DNA of 21,598 nt, from the IMG/VR virus record IMGVR_UViG_3300036853_000023, positions 1 to 21,598 of that record. One strand, written 5' to 3'. The notes under the pieces were generated by a model. That model worked only from the letters and a program-made list of their open reading frames with translations. It was not told where the DNA came from and did no database searches. Each line of letters starts with the position of its first letter. The first letter of the stretch is position 1. This DNA is from a virus. A program made the position numbers and the translations under genes. This document shows, one piece after another, positions 3,860 to 19,345 of this stretch.

Positions 3860-4003
3860 ATGCTCCCCGCGTTGTCCGGCCGTCGGCGCACCCGCGCGCT
3901 CCGAGCCGTCGCCTCGGCGCAGATCACCACGAACGCCGCGTTCGAGGCCTTCCTCACGCGCGGGTTCTGGGGCCGGATGCTCTGGCTGTTCTTCGGCCGA
4001 TGA
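3860..4003 (+). CDS. Small basic peptide of unknown function
   Basis: A 47-residue frame starts at ATG 3860 behind GGAGGT at 3851-3856, a strong ribosome binding site with short spacing. It ends at TGA 4001-4003, overlapping the next ATG. The N-terminal half is very basic (GRRRTRALR) and the C-terminus is aromatic and hydrophobic (GFWGRMLWLFFGR). It may bind nucleic acid or a membrane surface, but no family was recognised. The ribosome binding site and ATGA coupling argue that it is translated. Confidence 0.6.
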   Translation: MLPALSGRRRTRALRAVASAQITTNAAFEAFLTRGFWGRMLWLFFGR

Positions 4004-4563
4004 CGGTCCGCGACGCCGGCGAGGCCGACCTCGCGCGCGTGTTCGAGATGGGCGTGTCGTTCCTGGTGTCGGCGCCCGACTACGCCGCGGTCGTGCAGTG
4101 GACGCCGGAGAAGGTCGAGGAGCTGACGCGCTGGCTGACGCTCGTCGAGACAAACCGCGTCTTCGTGCTCGAGGGTGCCGACGGGGCGATCGTCGGGATG
4201 CTGGCGATCGCGCTGACGCCGAATCTGTGGGGCGACGGCAGCATCGCCGAGGAGGTCGCCTGGTGGGTGGAGCCGGGGCACCGCGGCGGGGCCGGACTCA
4301 AGCTATTGGGGGCCGGCGAAGAATGGGCACGACAGCAAGGGGCGCTCGTGCTTAGAATGGTCGCGCCTCGAGGTTCGCAGATTGGCACGGTCTATGAGCG
4401 CAGGGGTTATGTTCCGCTCGAGTCCATCTACGTGCTGAGGCTGCAGAATGGGCCTGTCCTTCCTCGGCATCGGCAAAAAGAAGCAAGCCCAAGCCCCGCC
4501 CCCGCTGGCGCCGCCGCCGATTCCGTCGGTGCTCGGGACGACGGCGGAGAGCCGGGCGACTGA
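4000..4563 (+). CDS. GNAT-family N-acetyltransferase
   Basis: The frame gives 187 residues, of which the first ~149 form a GNAT acetyltransferase. The acetyl-CoA binding motif A is VEPGHRGGAGLKLL (90-103), preceded by the strand SIAEEVAWWV, and motif B is YERRGYVPLESIYVLRL (132-148). Such genes occur in phage packaging and head modules; the substrate (a host factor, a virion protein or a small molecule) is unknown. The start at 4000 is in an ATGA overlap. The fold ends at about LRLQN (150), exactly where the next gene's ATG (4448) lies. The last ~37 residues, Pro/Ala/Glu-rich, read that gene out of frame and are probably overhang rather than a functional domain. Confidence 0.85.
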   Translation: MTVRDAGEADLARVFEMGVSFLVSAPDYAAVVQWTPEKVEELTRWLTLVETNRVFVLEGADGAIVGMLAIALTPNLWGDGSIAEEVAWWVEPGHRGGAGLKLLGAGEEWARQQGALVLRMVAPRGSQIGTVYERRGYVPLESIYVLRLQNGPVLPRHRQKEASPSPAPAGAAADSVGARDDGGEPGD

Positions 4564-9028: not shown

Positions 9029-10156
9029 ATGTTCACGCATCCCGCGCGTCGGCTCTCTTGGGGCGCCGTCGCACTCGTTACGCTCGTCGCCGTCCTGATT
9101 GGGAAGGCGGTCGAGCTCCTCATGCCCCACGCGGCCGACGCGCCGATGATGGGGCTCACGCTGTCGACCGGCGCGCTCACCCTGATCGATTGGGCCAAGC
9201 GCGTCGACCCCGACGGCAAGATCCCCGACATCGTCGAGCTCCTCGAACAGACGAACGAGATGCTCGCCGACATGCTGTGGAAGGAAGGCAACCTCCCGAC
9301 CGGCCACCGCACCACGGTCCGGACCGGACTCCCGTCCGTCTTCTGGCGCCTGCTCAATCAGGGCGTCACGCCGTCGAAGAGCACGACCGCGCAGATCGAC
9401 GAAGGCACGGGGATGCTTGAGGCCTGGTCGGAGGTCGACGTCGACCTCGCCATGCTGAACGGCAACGTCTCGAGTTTCCGGCTGTCGGAAGCGAAGGCGT
9501 TCCTCGAGGCGATGAATCAGGAAATGCAGTCGACGATCATCTACGGGAACGCGGGGCTTGCGCCGGAGGAGTTCACCGGGCTTGCCGTCCGCTACTCGGA
9601 CCTGACCGCCGAGAGCGCCGATAACATCATCCTCGGCGGCGGCGACGACGGGCATACCGATCTCACGTCGATCTGGCTCGTGGCCTGGGGCGAGGAGACC
9701 GTCTGCGGCATCTTCCCGAAGGGCAGCAAGGCCGGGCTCCAGCACAACGACTACGGCGAGGTGACCGTCGAAGTGACGGCCGGCGTCGCTGGCTCGCGCA
9801 TGCGCGCCTTTCAGGAGCGCTATCAGTGGAAGGGCGGGATCGCGGTGAAGGACTGGCGCTATGTGGTCCGGATCCCGAACATCGACGTCTCGGAGCTCTC
9901 GGGCACGTCGAACCCGGCCGACCTCATCGACCTGATGGAGCACGCGATCGAGCTCCTGCCGAACCGTCTCGGAAAGCCGGTCTTCTACATGAACCGGACG
10001 ATCCGCCGGCACCTGCGCCGACAGGTGCGGGAATCGGTCGGCAACGGCGGCGGGATCACGTTCGAGAACTTCGCCGGGCGCCGGACGATGTTCTTCTCGG
10101 AGGTCCCGGTGCGGACCGTCGACGCGATCCTCAACACGGAGAGCCTCGTCGCGTAG
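9029..10156 (+). CDS. Major capsid protein, BPP-1 (Bbp17) type
   Basis: The protein has 375 residues. From about residue 50 it follows the BPP-1-like major capsid family: TLIDWAKRVDPDGK (51-64), ELLEQTNEMLADMLW, GNLPTGHRTTVRTGLPS (87-103), EAWSEVDVDLAMLNGN, AFLEAMNQEM, YGNAGLAPEEFTGLA, WGEETVCGIFPKGSKAGLQH, YQWKGGIAVKDWRYVVRI, and FYMNRTIRRHLRRQ. BPP-1 capsid protein has an HK97-like fold with altered strand topology. The chosen start, supported by a ribosome binding site, adds ~45 residues absent from family members I recall, including a hydrophobic stretch (11-25). Starts at 9146/9149 would remove it. Packaged shell subunit; acts with scaffold upstream and cement protein downstream. Confidence 0.92.
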   Translation: MFTHPARRLSWGAVALVTLVAVLIGKAVELLMPHAADAPMMGLTLSTGALTLIDWAKRVDPDGKIPDIVELLEQTNEMLADMLWKEGNLPTGHRTTVRTGLPSVFWRLLNQGVTPSKSTTAQIDEGTGMLEAWSEVDVDLAMLNGNVSSFRLSEAKAFLEAMNQEMQSTIIYGNAGLAPEEFTGLAVRYSDLTAESADNIILGGGDDGHTDLTSIWLVAWGEETVCGIFPKGSKAGLQHNDYGEVTVEVTAGVAGSRMRAFQERYQWKGGIAVKDWRYVVRIPNIDVSELSGTSNPADLIDLMEHAIELLPNRLGKPVFYMNRTIRRHLRRQVRESVGNGGGITFENFAGRRTMFFSEVPVRTVDAILNTESLVA

Positions 10157-10185: not shown

Positions 10186-10644
10186 ATGATTCTCGACGCT
10201 CTAACGCAACTCTCGGACGCGCAGGCCGTCACGTCGGCCGACGCGTATTCGACCAACACGATCGACCTCGGGGCGACGACGCCCGTCCGCCAGATCGGCG
10301 ACGGGGAGCCACTGGCGCTCGTCGTGTCGGTCGACGTGGCGGCGGCCGGCGACGGCACGCCGGCAAGCTTCACCGACACGTTCGACTTCATCTTGGTCGA
10401 GTCGGCGAACGCGAACCTCTCGTCGCATACAGAGGTCATCAAGCGACGCGTCCCCGGTGCGCAACTCACCGCCGGCGCCGTCGTCATCATCCCGATCCCG
10501 CCGGGCAAGCCGACGAAGCGGTATATCGGGGCGCGCTACGAGCTCGGCACCGACGACACGATCACGGTGTCGGCCTTCATTGCGCCCATGTCCTTCGTGC
10601 AGGTCATGGCGAAGGCCTACGCCAAGGGCTACGTGATCGACTAG
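10186..10644 (+). CDS. Capsid cement protein, Bbp16 type
   Basis: This 152-residue protein starts at ATG 10186 behind AGGAGG (10171-10176). It opens MILDALTQLSDAQAVT, with STNTIDLGA, GEPLALVVSVDVAAAG, a beta-rich middle, LTAGAVVIIPIPPGKPTKRYIGARYELG and a C-terminal KAYAKGYVID. This matches the Bbp16 family, the jelly-roll cement protein that sits on the BPP-1 shell as its gene neighbour. It should stabilise the expanded capsid at capsomer contacts. Length is typical. A GC-rich hairpin follows directly after the stop, so the capsid-cement transcript may be partly insulated from downstream genes. Confidence 0.88.
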   Translation: MILDALTQLSDAQAVTSADAYSTNTIDLGATTPVRQIGDGEPLALVVSVDVAAAGDGTPASFTDTFDFILVESANANLSSHTEVIKRRVPGAQLTAGAVVIIPIPPGKPTKRYIGARYELGTDDTITVSAFIAPMSFVQVMAKAYAKGYVID

Positions 10645-10712: not shown

Positions 10713-11279
10713 ATGGCAAAGAAAACCCTCTCGAGGGCTCCGGACGCAGCGCCCGCACCGAGCCGCCCCTCGAGTCCGCCGAAGACGCCGGCGCCGACCG
10801 CGGCGCGCCCGAGCGGCCATCCGCGCGCCCGCGGCGCCAGTAAGCCCGCCGTCCCGGTGCCGCCGGCGCCGCGCCCCGAGGCGCGCCCCGCGGCGACGTC
10901 CAGCGCGCGTGAGCGCGGCGGACGCCCGCATCAAGCCGACAGCGCGCCGGCCGCGCGCGTCGATCGCCTGGCCGCCCCGTCGACCGCGACCGCGCCGACG
11001 CGGCCCGTCCGGCACAAGGTCAAGGCGACGAAGATGGGCTACATCTACCACGAGCGCCGGCGCGTGGGTGACGTGTTCATGGTGCACGGCAAAGACTTCA
11101 ATCCGTCATGGATGACCATCGTCGACGGCTCGACGCCGCTGCGGAAAACGACCGGGAAGCAGGAGCTCCGGCGGCTGCACGACGAGATCCTCTCGGCCAA
11201 GCGCGCCGAGCGGCTCACGGCCGACGAGCATCCCGAGATCCCGACGGGCACCGAGAACCCGCTCGGGGCTGAGGAATAA
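10713..11279 (+). CDS. Small head/tail structural protein with disordered N-terminus
   Basis: The protein has 188 residues behind GGAGAGAG (about 10702-10709). The first ~97 residues are Pro/Ala/Arg-rich and probably disordered (SRPSSPPKTPAPTAARPSG). Residues 101-157 are compact: KVKATKMGYIYHERRRVGDVFMVHG then FNPSWMTIVDG. This matches short phage proteins of the form KV(R/K)A-x-x-x-G-(Y/F)-(Y/H)-x-x-RRR-x-G-(E/D)-(E/V)-F with an SxxWM end, placed after the cement gene and of unknown job. Family members I recall are mostly the compact part alone, so the N-terminal half is an added extension. The C-terminus is acidic. Its stop (TAA 11277-11279) is the left end of an inverted repeat. Confidence 0.7.
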   Translation: MAKKTLSRAPDAAPAPSRPSSPPKTPAPTAARPSGHPRARGASKPAVPVPPAPRPEARPAATSSARERGGRPHQADSAPAARVDRLAAPSTATAPTRPVRHKVKATKMGYIYHERRRVGDVFMVHGKDFNPSWMTIVDGSTPLRKTTGKQELRRLHDEILSAKRAERLTADEHPEIPTGTENPLGAEE

Positions 11280-11293: not shown

Positions 11294-11330
11294 GCGGGTA
11301 AGAATCCGGCGCCTGGCCGGCGAGGGAGCG

Positions 11331-14300
11331 ATGGCGAAGACGATCCAACTGACGTTCTACATCACGCTCACCGATCAGGCGCAGGTCACCGCGCTCCAAG
11401 CGCAATACCCGAACGGCGTCTCGCGCGGGCCGCTCCCCGCGGCGACCGAGTTCTCGGCGCCGTATCAGGCCGAGGGCGATCCGATCACGTATCCCAACAC
11501 GCGGACCGGCTGGCTCCCCGAGGGCGCCGCCGGCGTCTTCCCGCTCGACCGCGCGTTCTTCACCATCAATGACGGCTTTTGGGGGCATCTCTTCGGCCGC
11601 GACCAGAAATACGCCTGGATCGGGCAGTTCGTCTATCAGGCTGCGACGACGCAGGAGGTCGACGGGACGAGCGGCATCACCGCGCCGGGGCCGCTGCGGG
11701 AGGTCGCCTTCGCGCAAGGCTTCGAAGACACGCCGATCGGCTCCTCGAACGGACCCGAAGGGCAGAGCAGCCATAGCGCGGTGCTCTCGCGCGACGCCTC
11801 GCGCACGGTCGACGGGCTCGGGTTCGCGCTGCGCGGCGACTCCGTGGGCGCGCAAGTCTCGTGGTCGGCCTTCGGGGGCACGCCGACCTCGCGCGGGTGG
11901 GAGCGCTTCTACTTCCGCATCCGCACCTTGCCGCAGTCGGGCGAGTGTGTGATCTGGCGGACGCGGTGGGCGGCGGGGAACTGGGGCTTTCAGCTCGTGA
12001 TCGACACGAGCGGCGCGATCATCCTGCGCAACGTCGGGAGCGGCGGCGCCTACTTCCCGGTGACGGGCTCGGGCTTCATGGGCTCGAGCGAGCCGGTCGA
12101 CCTCGGCGTGTGGCATTGCCTTGATATCGTCTACTCAAACGGCGTCAACGCGACGCTCGGGAACATCCAAAGCGCGGACGTCTGGATCGACCATGAGCTC
12201 GCCTTCGCGGTCGACGGCTACCTGCATCAAGAGGGCGCCGTCACACGGCTGTGCGGGAGCTCGCTGCTCGGGCTCGACACCATCGGCTCGAGCGGGAACG
12301 CCGAGGTCGACCTCGACGATCACGTCGGGTTCATCCTGCCGTTGCCGAGCCTGGCGTCGAACGTCGGCCGCAACGTGTATTGGACCGAGGCGATCAATCC
12401 GGGGCTCGATTGGATCAACGGGCATCACCTGGCGCGCGTCGACGCGCACGTCTTCGACGCGACGCACTCGGCGAACTGGACGGGCAACGTCCGCACGCTG
12501 CGGCAAGTCGGCGCGGCGCAGCAGGCCGAGGACGCGCTGACGTCGTCGACGAGTGGCGCGCTCATCGCGGCCAACACCTACGGCCGGCTCGTCGCGCAGC
12601 AGGACCGCTCGCTCGGCTGGCAAGCGCTCTTCGTGCATGTGCTGATGCGCCGGGCGACGGCGGGGACGCCGCAACTCGGCTACAGCTACACCGAGACCGA
12701 GGGCGGCTCGGCAACGACGGTGATGGCGAACGTCGGGACGCCGTCGGCGACGAACAATTGGAATTCGACGGCGGCGCGGCCGACGGGGCTCACGACGCCC
12801 AAGGCCCTATGGGACCTGATGCTCCGCTTCACTAAGGCGGCCGACACCAACGCGACGCAAGTCGCCAGCCTCTATGGGTCGCTCCTCCTCGTGGGCACGT
12901 TCGATCAATGCGACATCGCGCCCGACCCGGAGAACCCCGACGCCGACCGCCCCGTGCTGGCCGGCTCGATCGCCTACGGCATCCACAACGCGCCGTATCC
13001 GCGGACGCCGTTTGTCCGGACCGAGGTCCCGCCCGACGCGCCGGTGTGGGTGAAGGCCGGCACCTACACGGGCAACAGCCTCGGGCAGGACGTCATCGCG
13101 AAGATCCCGGCCCACTTCTGGTGGATCCGGCGCACCGATAGCAATACGGGCGCCGTGCGCTGGTGGTCGTCGATGACGGGCGCCAAGTGGGCGGTCGCCG
13201 GCGACACGCGCGGCGGGATGAACTACGCCACCGAGGACCCGGAATACATCAGCGCCGGCGGCGACACGGACCCCGAGAGCCGATCGCTCCTGCGGGTCGG
13301 CGGCGCGAACGCGGCCGAAAACGTCTCGGCGGCGACCTACCAATACCTCGCCATCGGCGATCCGGGCATGCGCTTTCTGCTCAACGCCGCGTGTCGCCAT
13401 AACAACGCGGTGACGTCGTTCGACAATGCGCTCATCGACGCCGGGTTTACCCCGGAGTGGGCGTTTGCCGTGACGGAGTTTCACGCCGGCGGCGGGTTCC
13501 TCTGGGCCAAGGGCCCGGGGCATCCGACGAACAGCGGGCACCGGCTCGACTCGGCGACCGAGCAAACGACCTTCGGGGCGTTCCTCGCCGGCGTCTTCCG
13601 CACGCTCAACACGCTGCACCCGTCGGGCGCGACGTCGCTCCCCTTCTCGCTCTGGCGCAACCGCGACGGCGCCGACTACGACGGGCTCGGGCTCACCGAA
13701 CCGGTGGTCGTGCAGATCTCAAGCTACGTCGGCGACGGCGCCGCGTCGCGCACGCTGCAGCTCCCGCGCACGTCGGGGAAGCGCCCGCTCTGGGCGATCG
13801 TCGTGCCCATTACGGGCAACCTCGCCGCGGTGCGCGACCCGTCGCACACGAGCAATACCTCGAGCACGCCGGCGAGCGGCTCGTCGACGATCACGACAGG
13901 GATCACGGCCGGGGCCGTCGACTCGATTACCGTCGGCTCGACGCTCAACGCCAACGGCGTCGCGCACTCCTACCTCGTGGTGATGGCGGCCGACGCGACC
14001 GCCGGCAATAACGGGTGGGGCACGAACGGCGAAGTCTTGTATGACCCGGTGCCGGCGCCTGGCGACGAGTGGCCGGACGGCTACACGCAGGACGAGCTCG
14101 ACGACCTCGAGAATCCGCCGACCGACGAGGGCGGCGACGTCGATAGCTTCGACGACGGGCCCGACCTGGCCGACGATCTCGCCGACACGGTCTGCGTCCC
14201 CTTCACGCTGCGCGCGTGCAACCTGGCGCTTGGGCGCATTGGCGTGTCGGACATCCTGCAGGCGGCGACCGACCTCACGGCGCCGACGTCGCGCGAGCAT

Positions 14301-14885
14301 ACGCTCCTCGCGCAGTTCTTCGAGCCGACGCTGCGGCGCGTGCTGCGCGATTTCCCCTGGCCGCATGCGACGCGCTACGCGACGCCGGCGCGGATCGACG
14401 GGTCGATCTCCGATCCCGTCAATGCCGATTGGGTCTACGCCTGGCGGCAACCGACGGGCGCGCTCTTCATCCGCCGGATCATCCGCCCCGAGCTCGGGCG
14501 CAAGTTCGACCAGAACCCGCCACCCTTCCGTGCGGCCGTCGACTCGATCGGGCCGCTCCTCTACACGACCGACGAGGGCGTGCAGACCGACTCGAACGGG
14601 GATCCCTTCATCGAGATCGAATACACCGTTCGGCCCAACTGCGGCGCGCGGGCGGGGGGCGATCAGGCCTTCGTGTCGTGCTTCGCGTGGGCGCTAGCCG
14701 GGGAGCTCGCCGGGCCGCTGGCGCGCGACAAGGACACGATCGAGCGCTGCGCCAAGAACTACGCGCTCGAGCGGAACACGGCATCGACGACGGCGTCGAA
14801 GGAGCGGCAGAACGAGCGGCCGGGCGACGCGCCGTGGCTCATCGACCGCGGGCTCCCGGGCGACGGGAACGGGTGGAGCCGGTAG
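11331..14885 (+). CDS. Virion protein fused to a gp11-like head-tail adaptor
   Basis: This is one uninterrupted frame of 1184 residues behind CGAGGGAG (11321-11328). Residues ~125-340 look like a concanavalin/LamG-type beta-sandwich (GFEDTPIG, WERFYFRIRTLP, FQLVIDTSGAIILRN, LGVWHCLDIVY, ADVWIDHELAF). Residues ~640-900 hold a further beta-rich region ending in a DUF7483-like unit (SYVGDGAASRTLQLPR, STLNANGVAHSYLVVMA). An acidic linker follows (~909-957, DDLENPP...DEGGD). Residues ~960-1184 match the T7 gp11-type tail tubular A adaptor: CNLALGRIGVSDILQA, EHTLLAQFFEPTLRRVLRDFPWPHATRYA, DWVYAWRQPTGALFIRRI. T7 gp11 is about 196 residues and stands alone. No in-frame start with a ribosome binding site precedes the adaptor part. 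The adaptor should sit under the portal; the N-terminal region may be a tail appendage. Confidence 0.8.
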   Translation: MAKTIQLTFYITLTDQAQVTALQAQYPNGVSRGPLPAATEFSAPYQAEGDPITYPNTRTGWLPEGAAGVFPLDRAFFTINDGFWGHLFGRDQKYAWIGQFVYQAATTQEVDGTSGITAPGPLREVAFAQGFEDTPIGSSNGPEGQSSHSAVLSRDASRTVDGLGFALRGDSVGAQVSWSAFGGTPTSRGWERFYFRIRTLPQSGECVIWRTRWAAGNWGFQLVIDTSGAIILRNVGSGGAYFPVTGSGFMGSSEPVDLGVWHCLDIVYSNGVNATLGNIQSADVWIDHELAFAVDGYLHQEGAVTRLCGSSLLGLDTIGSSGNAEVDLDDHVGFILPLPSLASNVGRNVYWTEAINPGLDWINGHHLARVDAHVFDATHSANWTGNVRTLRQVGAAQQAEDALTSSTSGALIAANTYGRLVAQQDRSLGWQALFVHVLMRRATAGTPQLGYSYTETEGGSATTVMANVGTPSATNNWNSTAARPTGLTTPKALWDLMLRFTKAADTNATQVASLYGSLLLVGTFDQCDIAPDPENPDADRPVLAGSIAYGIHNAPYPRTPFVRTEVPPDAPVWVKAGTYTGNSLGQDVIAKIPAHFWWIRRTDSNTGAVRWWSSMTGAKWAVAGDTRGGMNYATEDPEYISAGGDTDPESRSLLRVGGANAAENVSAATYQYLAIGDPGMRFLLNAACRHNNAVTSFDNALIDAGFTPEWAFAVTEFHAGGGFLWAKGPGHPTNSGHRLDSATEQTTFGAFLAGVFRTLNTLHPSGATSLPFSLWRNRDGADYDGLGLTEPVVVQISSYVGDGAASRTLQLPRTSGKRPLWAIVVPITGNLAAVRDPSHTSNTSSTPASGSSTITTGITAGAVDSITVGSTLNANGVAHSYLVVMAADATAGNNGWGTNGEVLYDPVPAPGDEWPDGYTQDELDDLENPPTDEGGDVDSFDDGPDLADDLADTVCVPFTLRACNLALGRIGVSDILQAATDLTAPTSREHTLLAQFFEPTLRRVLRDFPWPHATRYATPARIDGSISDPVNADWVYAWRQPTGALFIRRIIRPELGRKFDQNPPPFRAAVDSIGPLLYTTDEGVQTDSNGDPFIEIEYTVRPNCGARAGGDQAFVSCFAWALAGELAGPLARDKDTIERCAKNYALERNTASTTASKERQNERPGDAPWLIDRGLPGDGNGWSR

Positions 14886-14886
14886 G

Positions 14887-16383
14887 GTGAGCGTTCCGTA
14901 TTACGCGCCCGTCGTCGACCCGAACCGGTTCGTGACGCCGCCGTGGCGCGGCTTCTTCGATCGGCTCGACGCGGCACTCAGCGGCGCCGGCGGGGGCAGC
15001 GGCTCGACCGGGATCGTCGAAGTCAACCACGGACCGGACCGCGAGATCGACCCGCTCGCCGAGGTCATGATGTTCGCGCCGACGCTCCCGCCCGGACCGC
15101 CGGCCACGGCGCCCGTCGTCGCGTTCCCGCTGCCGGAGGTCGCCGAGCCGGTCGACATCGGGGCCGAGCTCGCGTCGCTCCTCGGGCCGCGGCCGGTGCT
15201 GCAAACCTACACGCCGAATTCGGTGCTTTTCGCCGGCGCGACGCGGCTCCCGACCGAAGACGCGCGCCTGACGTGGGACGCGACGAACGGCGTCCTCGGC
15301 GTGCTGTCGCACTCGCTCCTGAACGAAGCCGTGACGGGCAACTATCCGGCCGCCGCGGCGTCGGAACTGGCCGTCAAGAACAGCCTCAGCGGCGGCAATA
15401 CGCTGGCGCTGCGCAACACGCACGCCGGCGGGTTCTCGGCGATCACGATGCGGACCGACGACGGGCACGAAGTGCTCGCGATCGGGCATGGCAATGCCAG
15501 CGTGGGGACGGCGATCTTCGCGGACGCGAACTACATCCAAAGCTGGTCGGGCGTCGACACGGCGGCCAACCCGAAGCGCTTTTTTATCTCGATGGACGGC
15601 AACTACGGGTCCACCGGGTCGGGCGTGCGCTTCTACATCCGTCAGTCGTTCGAGACCAACGGCGACGTCAAGTTCTGGCAGCTCATCCCGTCGACGTCGA
15701 CGCAGCAGGAGCTCCTCTGGCTGGACGCGGTCAACAACCGCGTGCTCGTCGGCTACAACAACGGCAACGGGCCCGCGGCGATCTTGCACGTGGTCGGCGG
15801 CCAACCGATCTTCGACATCTTCGGGAGCCTCTCGTCGGGGCTGATTACGCGGTCGGCGGGCGGCACCGTGGCCTCGCCGTCGCAGACTGCCGGCCCGACG
15901 ACGGTCTTCCAGATCGCCGGGCGCGGCTACAACGACGCCGGCGCCTACACGGGCAACCTGATTGCGATCAACGGCGTGGCGGTCGTCGCGCCGACGACGA
16001 CGAACACGGAGAGCCGGCTCGATATCCGCGTCGTGCCGGCGAGCAGCGCGACGCTGACGACGGCGATGCAGGTGTTCGGGACGTCGCTGCTCGTGAACAC
16101 GGGCCTCCTGCAGTTCTCGACGCAGACCTCGGCGGCGGTGGCCCTGAAGCGCTCGAGCGCTGTCTTGCAGTGCCGGCTCGCCGACGACTCGGCGTTCGCG
16201 CAGTTCTCGGCGCTCGAGTTCATGAGCAACCGCGCCAACTTTTTGATGCGGACCGCGGTCGCGTGGACCAACGGCGCCGGGGCGGGGGCGGGAACGATCG
16301 GCAACGCACCGGCGGCCGGCAACCCGACGAAGTGGATCCCGGTCGACGACAACGGGACGACCCGCTACATTCCGGCCTGGTGA
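14887..16383 (+). CDS. Tail fibre or appendage protein
   Basis: This 498-residue protein starts at GTG 14887, one base after the upstream stop. The N-terminus (VDPNRFVTPPWRGFFDRLDAALS, about 10-32) resembles the short anchoring segment found in podovirus fibre-like proteins. The middle is beta-rich, with Gly, Ala, Asn and Thr. The C-terminus KWIPVDDNGTTRYIPAW is the typical end of phage fibre/appendage proteins, including the YIP motif. A receptor-binding or fibre role is likely, and it lies between adaptor and nozzle genes. No enzymatic depolymerase motif was recognised. The host receptor is unknown. Confidence 0.75.
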   Translation: MSVPYYAPVVDPNRFVTPPWRGFFDRLDAALSGAGGGSGSTGIVEVNHGPDREIDPLAEVMMFAPTLPPGPPATAPVVAFPLPEVAEPVDIGAELASLLGPRPVLQTYTPNSVLFAGATRLPTEDARLTWDATNGVLGVLSHSLLNEAVTGNYPAAAASELAVKNSLSGGNTLALRNTHAGGFSAITMRTDDGHEVLAIGHGNASVGTAIFADANYIQSWSGVDTAANPKRFFISMDGNYGSTGSGVRFYIRQSFETNGDVKFWQLIPSTSTQQELLWLDAVNNRVLVGYNNGNGPAAILHVVGGQPIFDIFGSLSSGLITRSAGGTVASPSQTAGPTTVFQIAGRGYNDAGAYTGNLIAINGVAVVAPTTTNTESRLDIRVVPASSATLTTAMQVFGTSLLVNTGLLQFSTQTSAAVALKRSSAVLQCRLADDSAFAQFSALEFMSNRANFLMRTAVAWTNGAGAGAGTIGNAPAAGNPTKWIPVDDNGTTRYIPAW

Positions 16384-16962: not shown

Positions 16963-19014
16963 ATGGGCTCGAGTCTCATTCAACGCGCCTTCTCGAGCGG
17001 GGAGCTCGCGCCGTCGCTGGCCGCGCGGGCGGACCTGGCGCGCTATCTCTCCGGGCTGCGCACGTGCCGCAACTTCGTCGTGCTCGAGCACGGCGGCGCC
17101 GGCAACCGCCCGGGGACGGCGTTCGTCGTCGAGGTGAAGAGCTCGAGCGCGCACACCTACCTGATGCCGGCGGTCTTCTCGGATTCGCTGGCGTTCCTGA
17201 TCGAGCTCGGCGACACCTACTTTCGCTTCATCAAGGACGGGGCGCAGGTGGAGAGCGGCGGGAGCGCCTACGAGATCTCGACGCCCTACGTGACGGCGGA
17301 TCTTGCGGCGCTCGTGTGGGAGCAGAACGGCGACGTCCTCACGATCACGCACCCGACGTATGCCCCGCGCGAGCTCCGCCGGGTGACCGATACGAACTGG
17401 ACGCTCTCGGTCGTCACGACCGCGCCGTCGATTGCGGCGCCGACCGGGCTCACGAGCGGCGGCACGCTCGCCGGGCTGCAGCATCTCGCCTACGTCGTGA
17501 CCGCCGTCAAGGCCGAGACCTACGAGGAGAGCCTCGCGAGCTCCGCCGTCGACCTCCCCACCGTCAGCGACCCGACGCCGGCCGACCCGATCGCGATTGG
17601 GTGGTCGGCCGTCAGCGGGGCGACCGAATACCGCGTCTTCAAGGATGCGTATGGGAATGGGGTCTACGGCTACATCGGGACGTCGACGGGCCTGTCCTTC
17701 AACGACGTTGGGCTCCTCCCGGACTTCACGCAGACGCCGCCGCTCGCGCGGTCCCTCTTCGCCGGCGCCGGCGACTACCCGTCAACGGTTGGCTACTACC
17801 AGCAGCGGCGGCTCTTTGCCTCGAGCACGAACAACCCCGAGCACGTGTGGGCGTCGCGGATCGGGTTCCATGCGAACTTCTCGGTCCGCTCGCCGCTCCA
17901 GGACGATGACGCGGTGACGTTCCGGCTCGCGTCGCGCGGCGCGCAGGATGTCCGCTGGCTGATCGATCTGAAGCGGCTGCTCGTGATCACGGGCCGCGGC
18001 GAGTGGAAGATTCAGGGCGACGGCGAAGGGGGGGCGCTCATCCCGTCGGCCATCAATCCGGACCGGCAGGGCTACACCGGCGCGCGCAAGGTGCGGCCGG
18101 CCGTGCTCGGGCAGACCGTGCTCTTTGTGCAGGCGCGCGGGACGCGGGTCCGCGACCTCTCGTTCGACCAGGAGATCGGCGGCGTCGGCTCGCGCGACCT
18201 CACGGTCTATTCGCGGCACCTGTTCAAGCGCAAGACGATCGACCGGATGGCGCTCGCGCAAACGCCGGACGCGGTGCTCTGGTGCGTGCGCAGCGACGGG
18301 ACGCTCCTCGGGCTGACCTATCAGCGCGAGGCCGACGTGCTCGCCTGGCACCGGCACGACACCGGCGACGGCGACCTCTTCGAAGACGTGGCGGTCGTGC
18401 CCGAAGGCGACGAGGACGCGGTCTACGTGGTCGTGAAGCGGACGATCAATGGGGCGACGAAGCGCTATATCGAGCGGTTCGCGTCACGCGAGATCGACAG
18501 CGTGGCCGACGACGCGTGGTTCGTCGACTCCGGGCTCGAGTATGACGGGGCGGCGACGACGACCGTCTCGGGGCTGGACCATCTGATCGGCCGCACGGTG
18601 AAAGTGCTCGCCGACGGCGTCGTGCCCGACGGGACGTTCATCGTCGGCGCCGGCGGGAGCCTGACGATTCCGACGGCCGCGACGCACATCATCGTCGGGC
18701 TCGGCATCGAGGCGGACCTCGAGACGCTCGACCTCGACGTGCAGGGGAGCGAGCTCCGCGACAAACGGAAGCGGGTCGCCAACGTGACGCTCCTCGTCGA
18801 GGGGAGCCGCCGCGGGTTCTACGTCGGGCCCGACGAGGATCGGCTGTCGCGCACGCGGGCCGAGCAGTGGGAGAGTTCCGATACCATCGACGGCGCCATC
18901 GAGGCGCGGGTCGCGACCACGTGGAGCGAGTCGGGCCGCCTGTTTGTCCGACACACCGATCCGACGCCGCTCACCGTGATCGGCATCATTCCGAATGTCA
19001 GCGTAGGAGGGTAA
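16963..19014 (+). CDS. Tail nozzle (tubular protein B-like)
   Basis: This 683-residue protein has the hallmark N-terminus of the BPP-1-type tail nozzle or stabilisation family: IQRAFSSGELAPSLAARADLARYLSGLRTCRNFVVLEHGGAGNRPGT (6-53). This is followed by beta-rich repeats (YEISTPYVTADLAALVWEQNGDVLTITHP, about 101-130). Residues ~155-259 look like an inserted fibronectin/Ig-type domain (APTGLTSGGT, ATEYRVFKD). The C-terminal half continues in a long beta-propeller-like pattern. It should form the lower tail tube under the adaptor. The ATG at 16963 lies three bases after the previous stop. Its own end carries AGGAGG for the next gene. Confidence 0.87.
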   Translation: MGSSLIQRAFSSGELAPSLAARADLARYLSGLRTCRNFVVLEHGGAGNRPGTAFVVEVKSSSAHTYLMPAVFSDSLAFLIELGDTYFRFIKDGAQVESGGSAYEISTPYVTADLAALVWEQNGDVLTITHPTYAPRELRRVTDTNWTLSVVTTAPSIAAPTGLTSGGTLAGLQHLAYVVTAVKAETYEESLASSAVDLPTVSDPTPADPIAIGWSAVSGATEYRVFKDAYGNGVYGYIGTSTGLSFNDVGLLPDFTQTPPLARSLFAGAGDYPSTVGYYQQRRLFASSTNNPEHVWASRIGFHANFSVRSPLQDDDAVTFRLASRGAQDVRWLIDLKRLLVITGRGEWKIQGDGEGGALIPSAINPDRQGYTGARKVRPAVLGQTVLFVQARGTRVRDLSFDQEIGGVGSRDLTVYSRHLFKRKTIDRMALAQTPDAVLWCVRSDGTLLGLTYQREADVLAWHRHDTGDGDLFEDVAVVPEGDEDAVYVVVKRTINGATKRYIERFASREIDSVADDAWFVDSGLEYDGAATTTVSGLDHLIGRTVKVLADGVVPDGTFIVGAGGSLTIPTAATHIIVGLGIEADLETLDLDVQGSELRDKRKRVANVTLLVEGSRRGFYVGPDEDRLSRTRAEQWESSDTIDGAIEARVATTWSESGRLFVRHTDPTPLTVIGIIPNVSVGG

Positions 19015-19018
19015 CGAC

Positions 19019-19345
19019 GTGGCCGATCTGGTCTCGATGAAGATTGACCCCAAAGCGCGCGAGGCGAAATACGCCGAGACGGCGATGGCCGACCGCCCCG
19101 AGTATCCGTGGGGGCTGTGCCTGAACGTCGACGACGACGCGCTCGAGAAACTCGGGATCGCCAAGCTCCCCGGCGCCGGCGACGAGCTCACGCTGCAGGC
19201 CGTCGTCAAGGTGACGAGCTCGAGTGAGACCGACACCGCCGCCGGCAAGAACCGCTCGCTCTCCCTGCAGATCACGAGCATGGGGCTCGAGCCGAAGAAG
19301 GCCGGCAAGAACACGACGGCGAAACTCTACGGCGAGGAGAAGTAA
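19019..19345 (+). CDS. Conserved small protein, possible capsid-associated factor
   Basis: The protein has 108 residues from GTG 19019, placed behind AGGAGG (19005-19010). It opens MADLVSMKIDPKAREAKYAETAMADRPEYPWGLCLNVDDDALEKLGIAKLP, with the pattern YP-(Y/W)-GLxLxLDxxxLxKLGI common in a family of small phage proteins coded among virion genes. Some members are annotated as capsid staple proteins; that link is from memory and should be treated as tentative. The middle is beta-rich (LTLQAVVKVTSSSE). The role in this phage is unknown. Confidence 0.65.
   Translation: MADLVSMKIDPKAREAKYAETAMADRPEYPWGLCLNVDDDALEKLGIAKLPGAGDELTLQAVVKVTSSSETDTAAGKNRSLSLQITSMGLEPKKAGKNTTAKLYGEEK

Follow-up and report, generated by a model that had tools for sequence, protein, structure and literature searches.

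Among short-tailed phages there is an uncultured group, represented mainly by metagenome contigs, in which the head-tail adaptor forms the C-terminal end of a single long reading frame that starts with a string of lectin-like beta domains. We analysed a window of 21,598 nt, positions 1 to 21,598 of the IMG/VR virus record IMGVR_UViG_3300036853_000023, in which this fused gene lies at positions 11331-14885 (+). Our preferred reading, to which we give a probability of about 0.7, is that its product is the phage's only head-tail adaptor and bears a covalent N-terminal arm, tethered outside the ring and probably binding glycans. The open reading frame, profile matches and a structure model together delimit a lectin-like N-region, a linker and the adaptor within 1184 residues. 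The frame is unbroken from the ATG at 11331 to the stop at 14885, GAGGGAG at 11322-11328 (+) is its likely ribosome binding site, and GC3 is uniform over its entire length (0.89-0.96 per 100 codons).

The C-terminal domain (residues ~955-1184; 14193-14882, +) was identified as a gp11/TTPA-type adaptor. A PHROG profile search matched phrog_394 to residues 963-1173 of the fused protein (E=1e-18), and the profile of the adaptor alignment matched 8ck1_E (E=8e-38). The model of the domain combines a helix bundle with a beta dock fold and resembles 8ck1_E, the best relative of solved structure (Foldseek E=1.6e-9, TMt 0.74), and 9efk_AA (TMt 0.68). It aligns with epsilon15 gp11 and BPP-1 Bbp14, and it is like these two proteins and the Carin1 connector (8ck1_E) in profile, fold, gene position and C-terminal tail motif. 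The fused gene indeed occupies the place of a stand-alone adaptor, between the capsid/cement and nozzle genes: upstream are a major capsid protein of the epsilon15 GP7/BPP-1 type (9029-10156, +; PF20911, E=2e-126) and a Bbp16-like cement protein (10186-10644, +; PF21190, E=5e-17), and downstream is the nozzle/tail-tube gene (16963-19014, +; phrog_376, E=4e-192). The motif KERQNERPGDAPWLIDR (14799-14849, +) recurs in every intact relative, at the last adaptor copy, and is a candidate portal-embracing tail, by analogy with the adaptor of SU10, which holds the portal with a C-terminal embracing loop (PMC9509320). An earlier note, made from the letters of the window alone, had placed a gp11-type adaptor of ~225 residues at the C-terminus; profile, fold, position and motif agree on its identity, and only the size needs correction, to ~230 residues starting at about Cys955. 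What differs from the epsilon15 and BPP-1 type is that those adaptors have their own genes of ~200-220 codons, whereas here the chain has ~900 residues and a linker ahead of the adaptor, so that a definition of the adaptor as a stand-alone protein of about 200 residues does not cover this 1184-residue product.

Other features of the neighbourhood were recorded. A Gp10-like coat/decoration gene follows the nozzle gene (19019-19345; PF21628, E=7e-18), while in epsilon15 it lies just before the adaptor. Between adaptor and nozzle, positions 14887-16383 encode a 498-residue protein with no Pfam or PHROG matches, and three relatives (L034, L043 and L070) have no comparably sized gene at that position. 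A GNAT acetyltransferase gene (4000-4563) lies between terminase and portal; BPP-1 has such a gene too, bbp24, at a similar place. The related contig G002 encodes a 2462-residue protein (L158:1967-9355; phrog_9880) that is probably the large internal virion protein. A GGDEF domain was recognised in it (E=5e-17), its GGDEF letters preserved, possibly a diguanylate cyclase in a structural protein.

No phrog_394 gene besides the fused one was found in the 21.6-kb window fragment or in the 45-kb contigs G001 and G002; G002 has two adaptor domains, both within one chain. A separate adaptor gene elsewhere was rejected on this basis. An internal start that would yield a separate adaptor was rejected as well. 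Counted from the adaptor's conserved Asn, the nearest alternative starts in the window are a TTG 60 and a GTG 56 codons upstream and a GTG 9 codons downstream, the region from -55 to +8 codons has no start codon, and no junction start is conserved across relatives. The absence of a start codon with a ribosome binding site before the adaptor, reported in the earlier note, agrees with this. That note had also reasoned that the fusion would fall if a stop or frameshift appeared near 14050-14200, or an internal start was conserved in relatives; neither was seen, and the broken copies among the relatives break elsewhere, except for L058, which is shifted in several places including near the junction.

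The fusion is widespread. Searching viral contigs with single proteins and with alignments recovered relatives at 74, 54 and 36%, then 50 loci. N-region and adaptor share one ORF at 60 loci, with 46 distinct C-terminal sequences (last 150 residues), a count in which some loci overlap on one contig and a few ORFs are truncated at a contig end. Nearly all N-region loci have the adaptor in the same ORF, a result repeated with a search from the nozzle gene alone, and the in-frame fusion first noticed in the window is a conserved one. Relatives can be aligned over both halves and over the linker, with dN/dS under 1 for each part, and the fused frame is, judged from these alignments, not due to chance. 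The probability that two genes were joined artificially, in assembly or sequencing, is negligible: frame breaks do occur in some single contigs (a stop in L024; frameshifts in L037, L057 and L058), but the intact fusion is present in many diverged contigs assembled independently, and dN/dS stays below 1 across the linker. We rejected the artefact because relatives carry intact fusions; by sequence comparison, the conserved fusion is real.

We had been alerted to look for split as well as fused forms, and one split form was found. At locus L075, in a 72-kb contig, the N-region stands alone as a protein of 906 residues that ends six bases before a gene matching SU10_adaptor (PF24175, E=2.9e-7). 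The same partners, encoded apart, support a functional link between N-region and adaptor, as far as one contig can. Further along this contig (L075:10153-11507), after the SU10_adaptor gene, the frame from near position 10874 looks adaptor-like by eye. One scan of genome contigs for prophage relatives gave 17 pattern matches, none of which was confirmed, and no host is named here for that reason.

Residues 1-905 form a string of beta domains, among them a LamG/jelly-roll. Neither Pfam nor PHROGs matched the first 952 residues of the window's fused protein, and the assignment comes from the predicted structure. The AlphaFold model of the whole chain, a check proposed at the outset, shows a jelly-roll N-region together with the adaptor fold at pLDDT 78.5 and pTM 0.69 with an alignment of 37 rows (9 rows gave pLDDT 49). 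In the model, a mixed beta/alpha domain (residues 1-105; 11331-11645, +), which is well conserved, is followed by a LamG/concanavalin-type jelly-roll (residues ~118-345; 11682-12365, +), a second beta domain (residues ~355-530; 12393-12920, +) and the C-terminal half of the N-region (residues ~550-905; 12978-14045, +), its most conserved part, which includes two weakly repeated units (550-690 versus 786-905, 25% in hhalign). Foldseek matched the N-region model to LamG/laminin LG, sialidase-lectin, CBM66 and alginate-lyase jelly-rolls, and also to phage ConA-like, LamG and DUF7483 proteins. By Pfam, Laminin_G_3 (PF13385) was detected in 5 of 37 relatives (best E=4.7e-7), the window's own protein having no match, and CBM_5_12 in three of the 37. 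The beta-rich, lectin-like character first ascribed to this region is hence upheld by model and Foldseek. The DUF7483 profile suggested with it matched none of the 37 members by Pfam; that family appears solely as a Foldseek match to a DUF7483 protein.

Between the two halves lies an acidic, Pro-rich linker (residues ~906-954; 14046-14192, +), defined from its sequence and predicted with low model confidence. The earlier count of about 18 Asp/Glu in 45 residues holds up: in the window the 50 residues before the adaptor contain 19 Asp/Glu and no Lys/Arg. Among relatives the linker sequence is variable, Lys/Arg being absent in nearly all, and L061 has a Big_9/cadherin Ig domain in its place. The main rival to a tethered arm is cleavage, in which a protease would cut the exposed linker, the adaptor would assemble alone, and the N-region would serve in the virion as a protein of its own or would assist assembly. 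The length, acidity and low model confidence of the linker are compatible with such a precursor, as are the phrog_458 protease-type protein encoded in the window and the split form, where the N-region gene directly precedes an SU10-type adaptor. Yet the linker varies freely with no conserved motif and almost never contains Lys/Arg, an Ig domain can take its place, and a released arm gives no clear reason for a fusion kept across a diverse clade. We consider cleavage unlikely. The lack of sequence conservation and the Ig domain in L061 favour a spacer over a cleavage site.

The chain changes unevenly. Compared with L031, the window is 93% identical over residues 1-105, 52% in LamG, 82% and 83% in the other parts of the N-region, 80% in the linker and 62% in the adaptor (55 codons). 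The corresponding dN/dS is 0.72 for LamG and 0.15-0.25 for the linker and the remaining parts of the N-region, and below 1 in each part. This fast change of LamG would fit host or surface recognition. The arm could instead be a structural collar, or a capsid-stabilising part over the head-tail joint, that binds no glycan; jelly-roll and Ig-type domains also act as decoration, and residues 1-105 and 550-905 are more conserved than LamG. Because the fastest-changing part is the LamG domain itself, and three relatives have CBM_5_12 matches, both suggestive of surface binding, we regard this structural role as quite improbable. L031 and L032 are alike in the adaptor (89% over 55 residues) and unlike in LamG (36%), and so adaptor and N-region modules seem to recombine.

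We placed the adaptor state on a nozzle tree of 93 rows. One clade of 42 rows (SH-aLRT 98) holds all 38 fusions together with L083, in which an unrelated N-terminal part of ~700 residues is fused to the adaptor, and the stand-alone L086, L077 and L093; all 51 rows outside it have stand-alone adaptors, and the distribution requires at least 4 changes. An apparent 189-residue extension in L093/L103 looks out-of-frame before an internal ATG and was counted as stand-alone. No N-region gene was found elsewhere in L077, L093 or L086, a search of incomplete contigs run without a positive control. Twelve of the 38 fused rows have two consecutive adaptor domains. The first copies form one group (support 100) and the second copies another (99), which points to a single duplication, later spread or lost. 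A PG-rich linker ends the first copy, and an NExQQ..WIxGR-type motif ends the last copy only; since the C-terminal loop of SU10 grips the portal and the motif is kept there, the last copy is likely the portal binder. The number of 12-subunit adaptors in a podophage tail can range from one to three (PMC11784390). Small domains are inserted in the first adaptor copy of L070, L073 and L074 and in the adaptors of L077, L083, L068 and L078; they include an E1_FCCH-like domain (L073) and a CBM_5_12-like piece with a second match, to part of the nozzle profile.

The fusion of these two roles had seemed unfamiliar, which stands for this architecture, of which no description was found in the literature searched, most subscription journals lying outside its scope, and fails for adaptor fusions at large. 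The precedent is p14 of Vibrio phage VP2, an epsilon15-like podovirus, a 741-residue 'tail tubular protein' (phrog_9239) that likewise fuses an adaptor to surface-binding-type modules. There, however, the adaptor is N-terminal and is followed by three Ig domains and one Gly-rich domain, with no LamG part; a PHROG search found no phrog_9239 match in the window's fused protein. New here are the opposite order and other modules. As in our proposal, the adaptor ring in SU10 and T7 is the mounting point for host-binding appendages, long fibres docking on it in SU10; those fibres are individual trimers attached without a covalent bond, six to a ring of 12 subunits (PMC9509320), whereas here the arm is covalent. 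TTPA of KP32 and phiYeO3-12 is reported to have a dual function, with saccharide-related activity besides its structural role; the accessible text of these reports ascribes the activity to tail tubular protein A itself and mentions no long fused arm (PMC5440376, PMC7060351).

In the mechanism that we propose, the C-terminal domain would form the ring under the portal and grip the portal by its C-terminal tail, while the acidic, Pro-rich tether would keep the jelly-roll and the other beta domains, ~900 residues in all, on the outside of the ring. The arm would probably bind host-surface or environmental glycans, and would replace or supplement separately docked fibres. We infer the ring of 12, the outward display, the glycan binding and the absence of cleavage; each copy of the adaptor in the neck ring probably has a surface-gripping arm to itself. 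Twelve copies of a 100-kDa arm are a large load on the neck, which is a point against a displayed arm, and the scarcity of Pfam LamG matches, absent from the window's own protein, also speaks against our reading. Because the fused-form phage G002 also encodes a beta-helix protein (weak match, PF13229, E=3e-4) that could be a tailspike, the main receptor binder is not necessarily the arm, which may be an extra adhesin. More tentatively, and with some doubt on our part, the adaptor N-terminus in the 42-row clade could be a general socket for exchangeable fused surface-binding modules (the LamG arm in 38 rows, the unrelated ~700-residue module in L083), with a 12-fold lectin collar as the outcome; on this reading the two adaptor domains of a tandem chain would make either two rings stacked on each other or, with six chains, a single ring of 12 positions, the last domain alone gripping the portal.

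A 'hypothetical protein' of 1000-1600 residues annotated at this position may be the adaptor. The adaptor is usually regarded as a small, conserved joint. In this diverse clade the joint would itself bear a large surface-binding arm, and it is doubled in some members; the clade would offer a natural test of the links between ring symmetry, appendage number and portal gripping.
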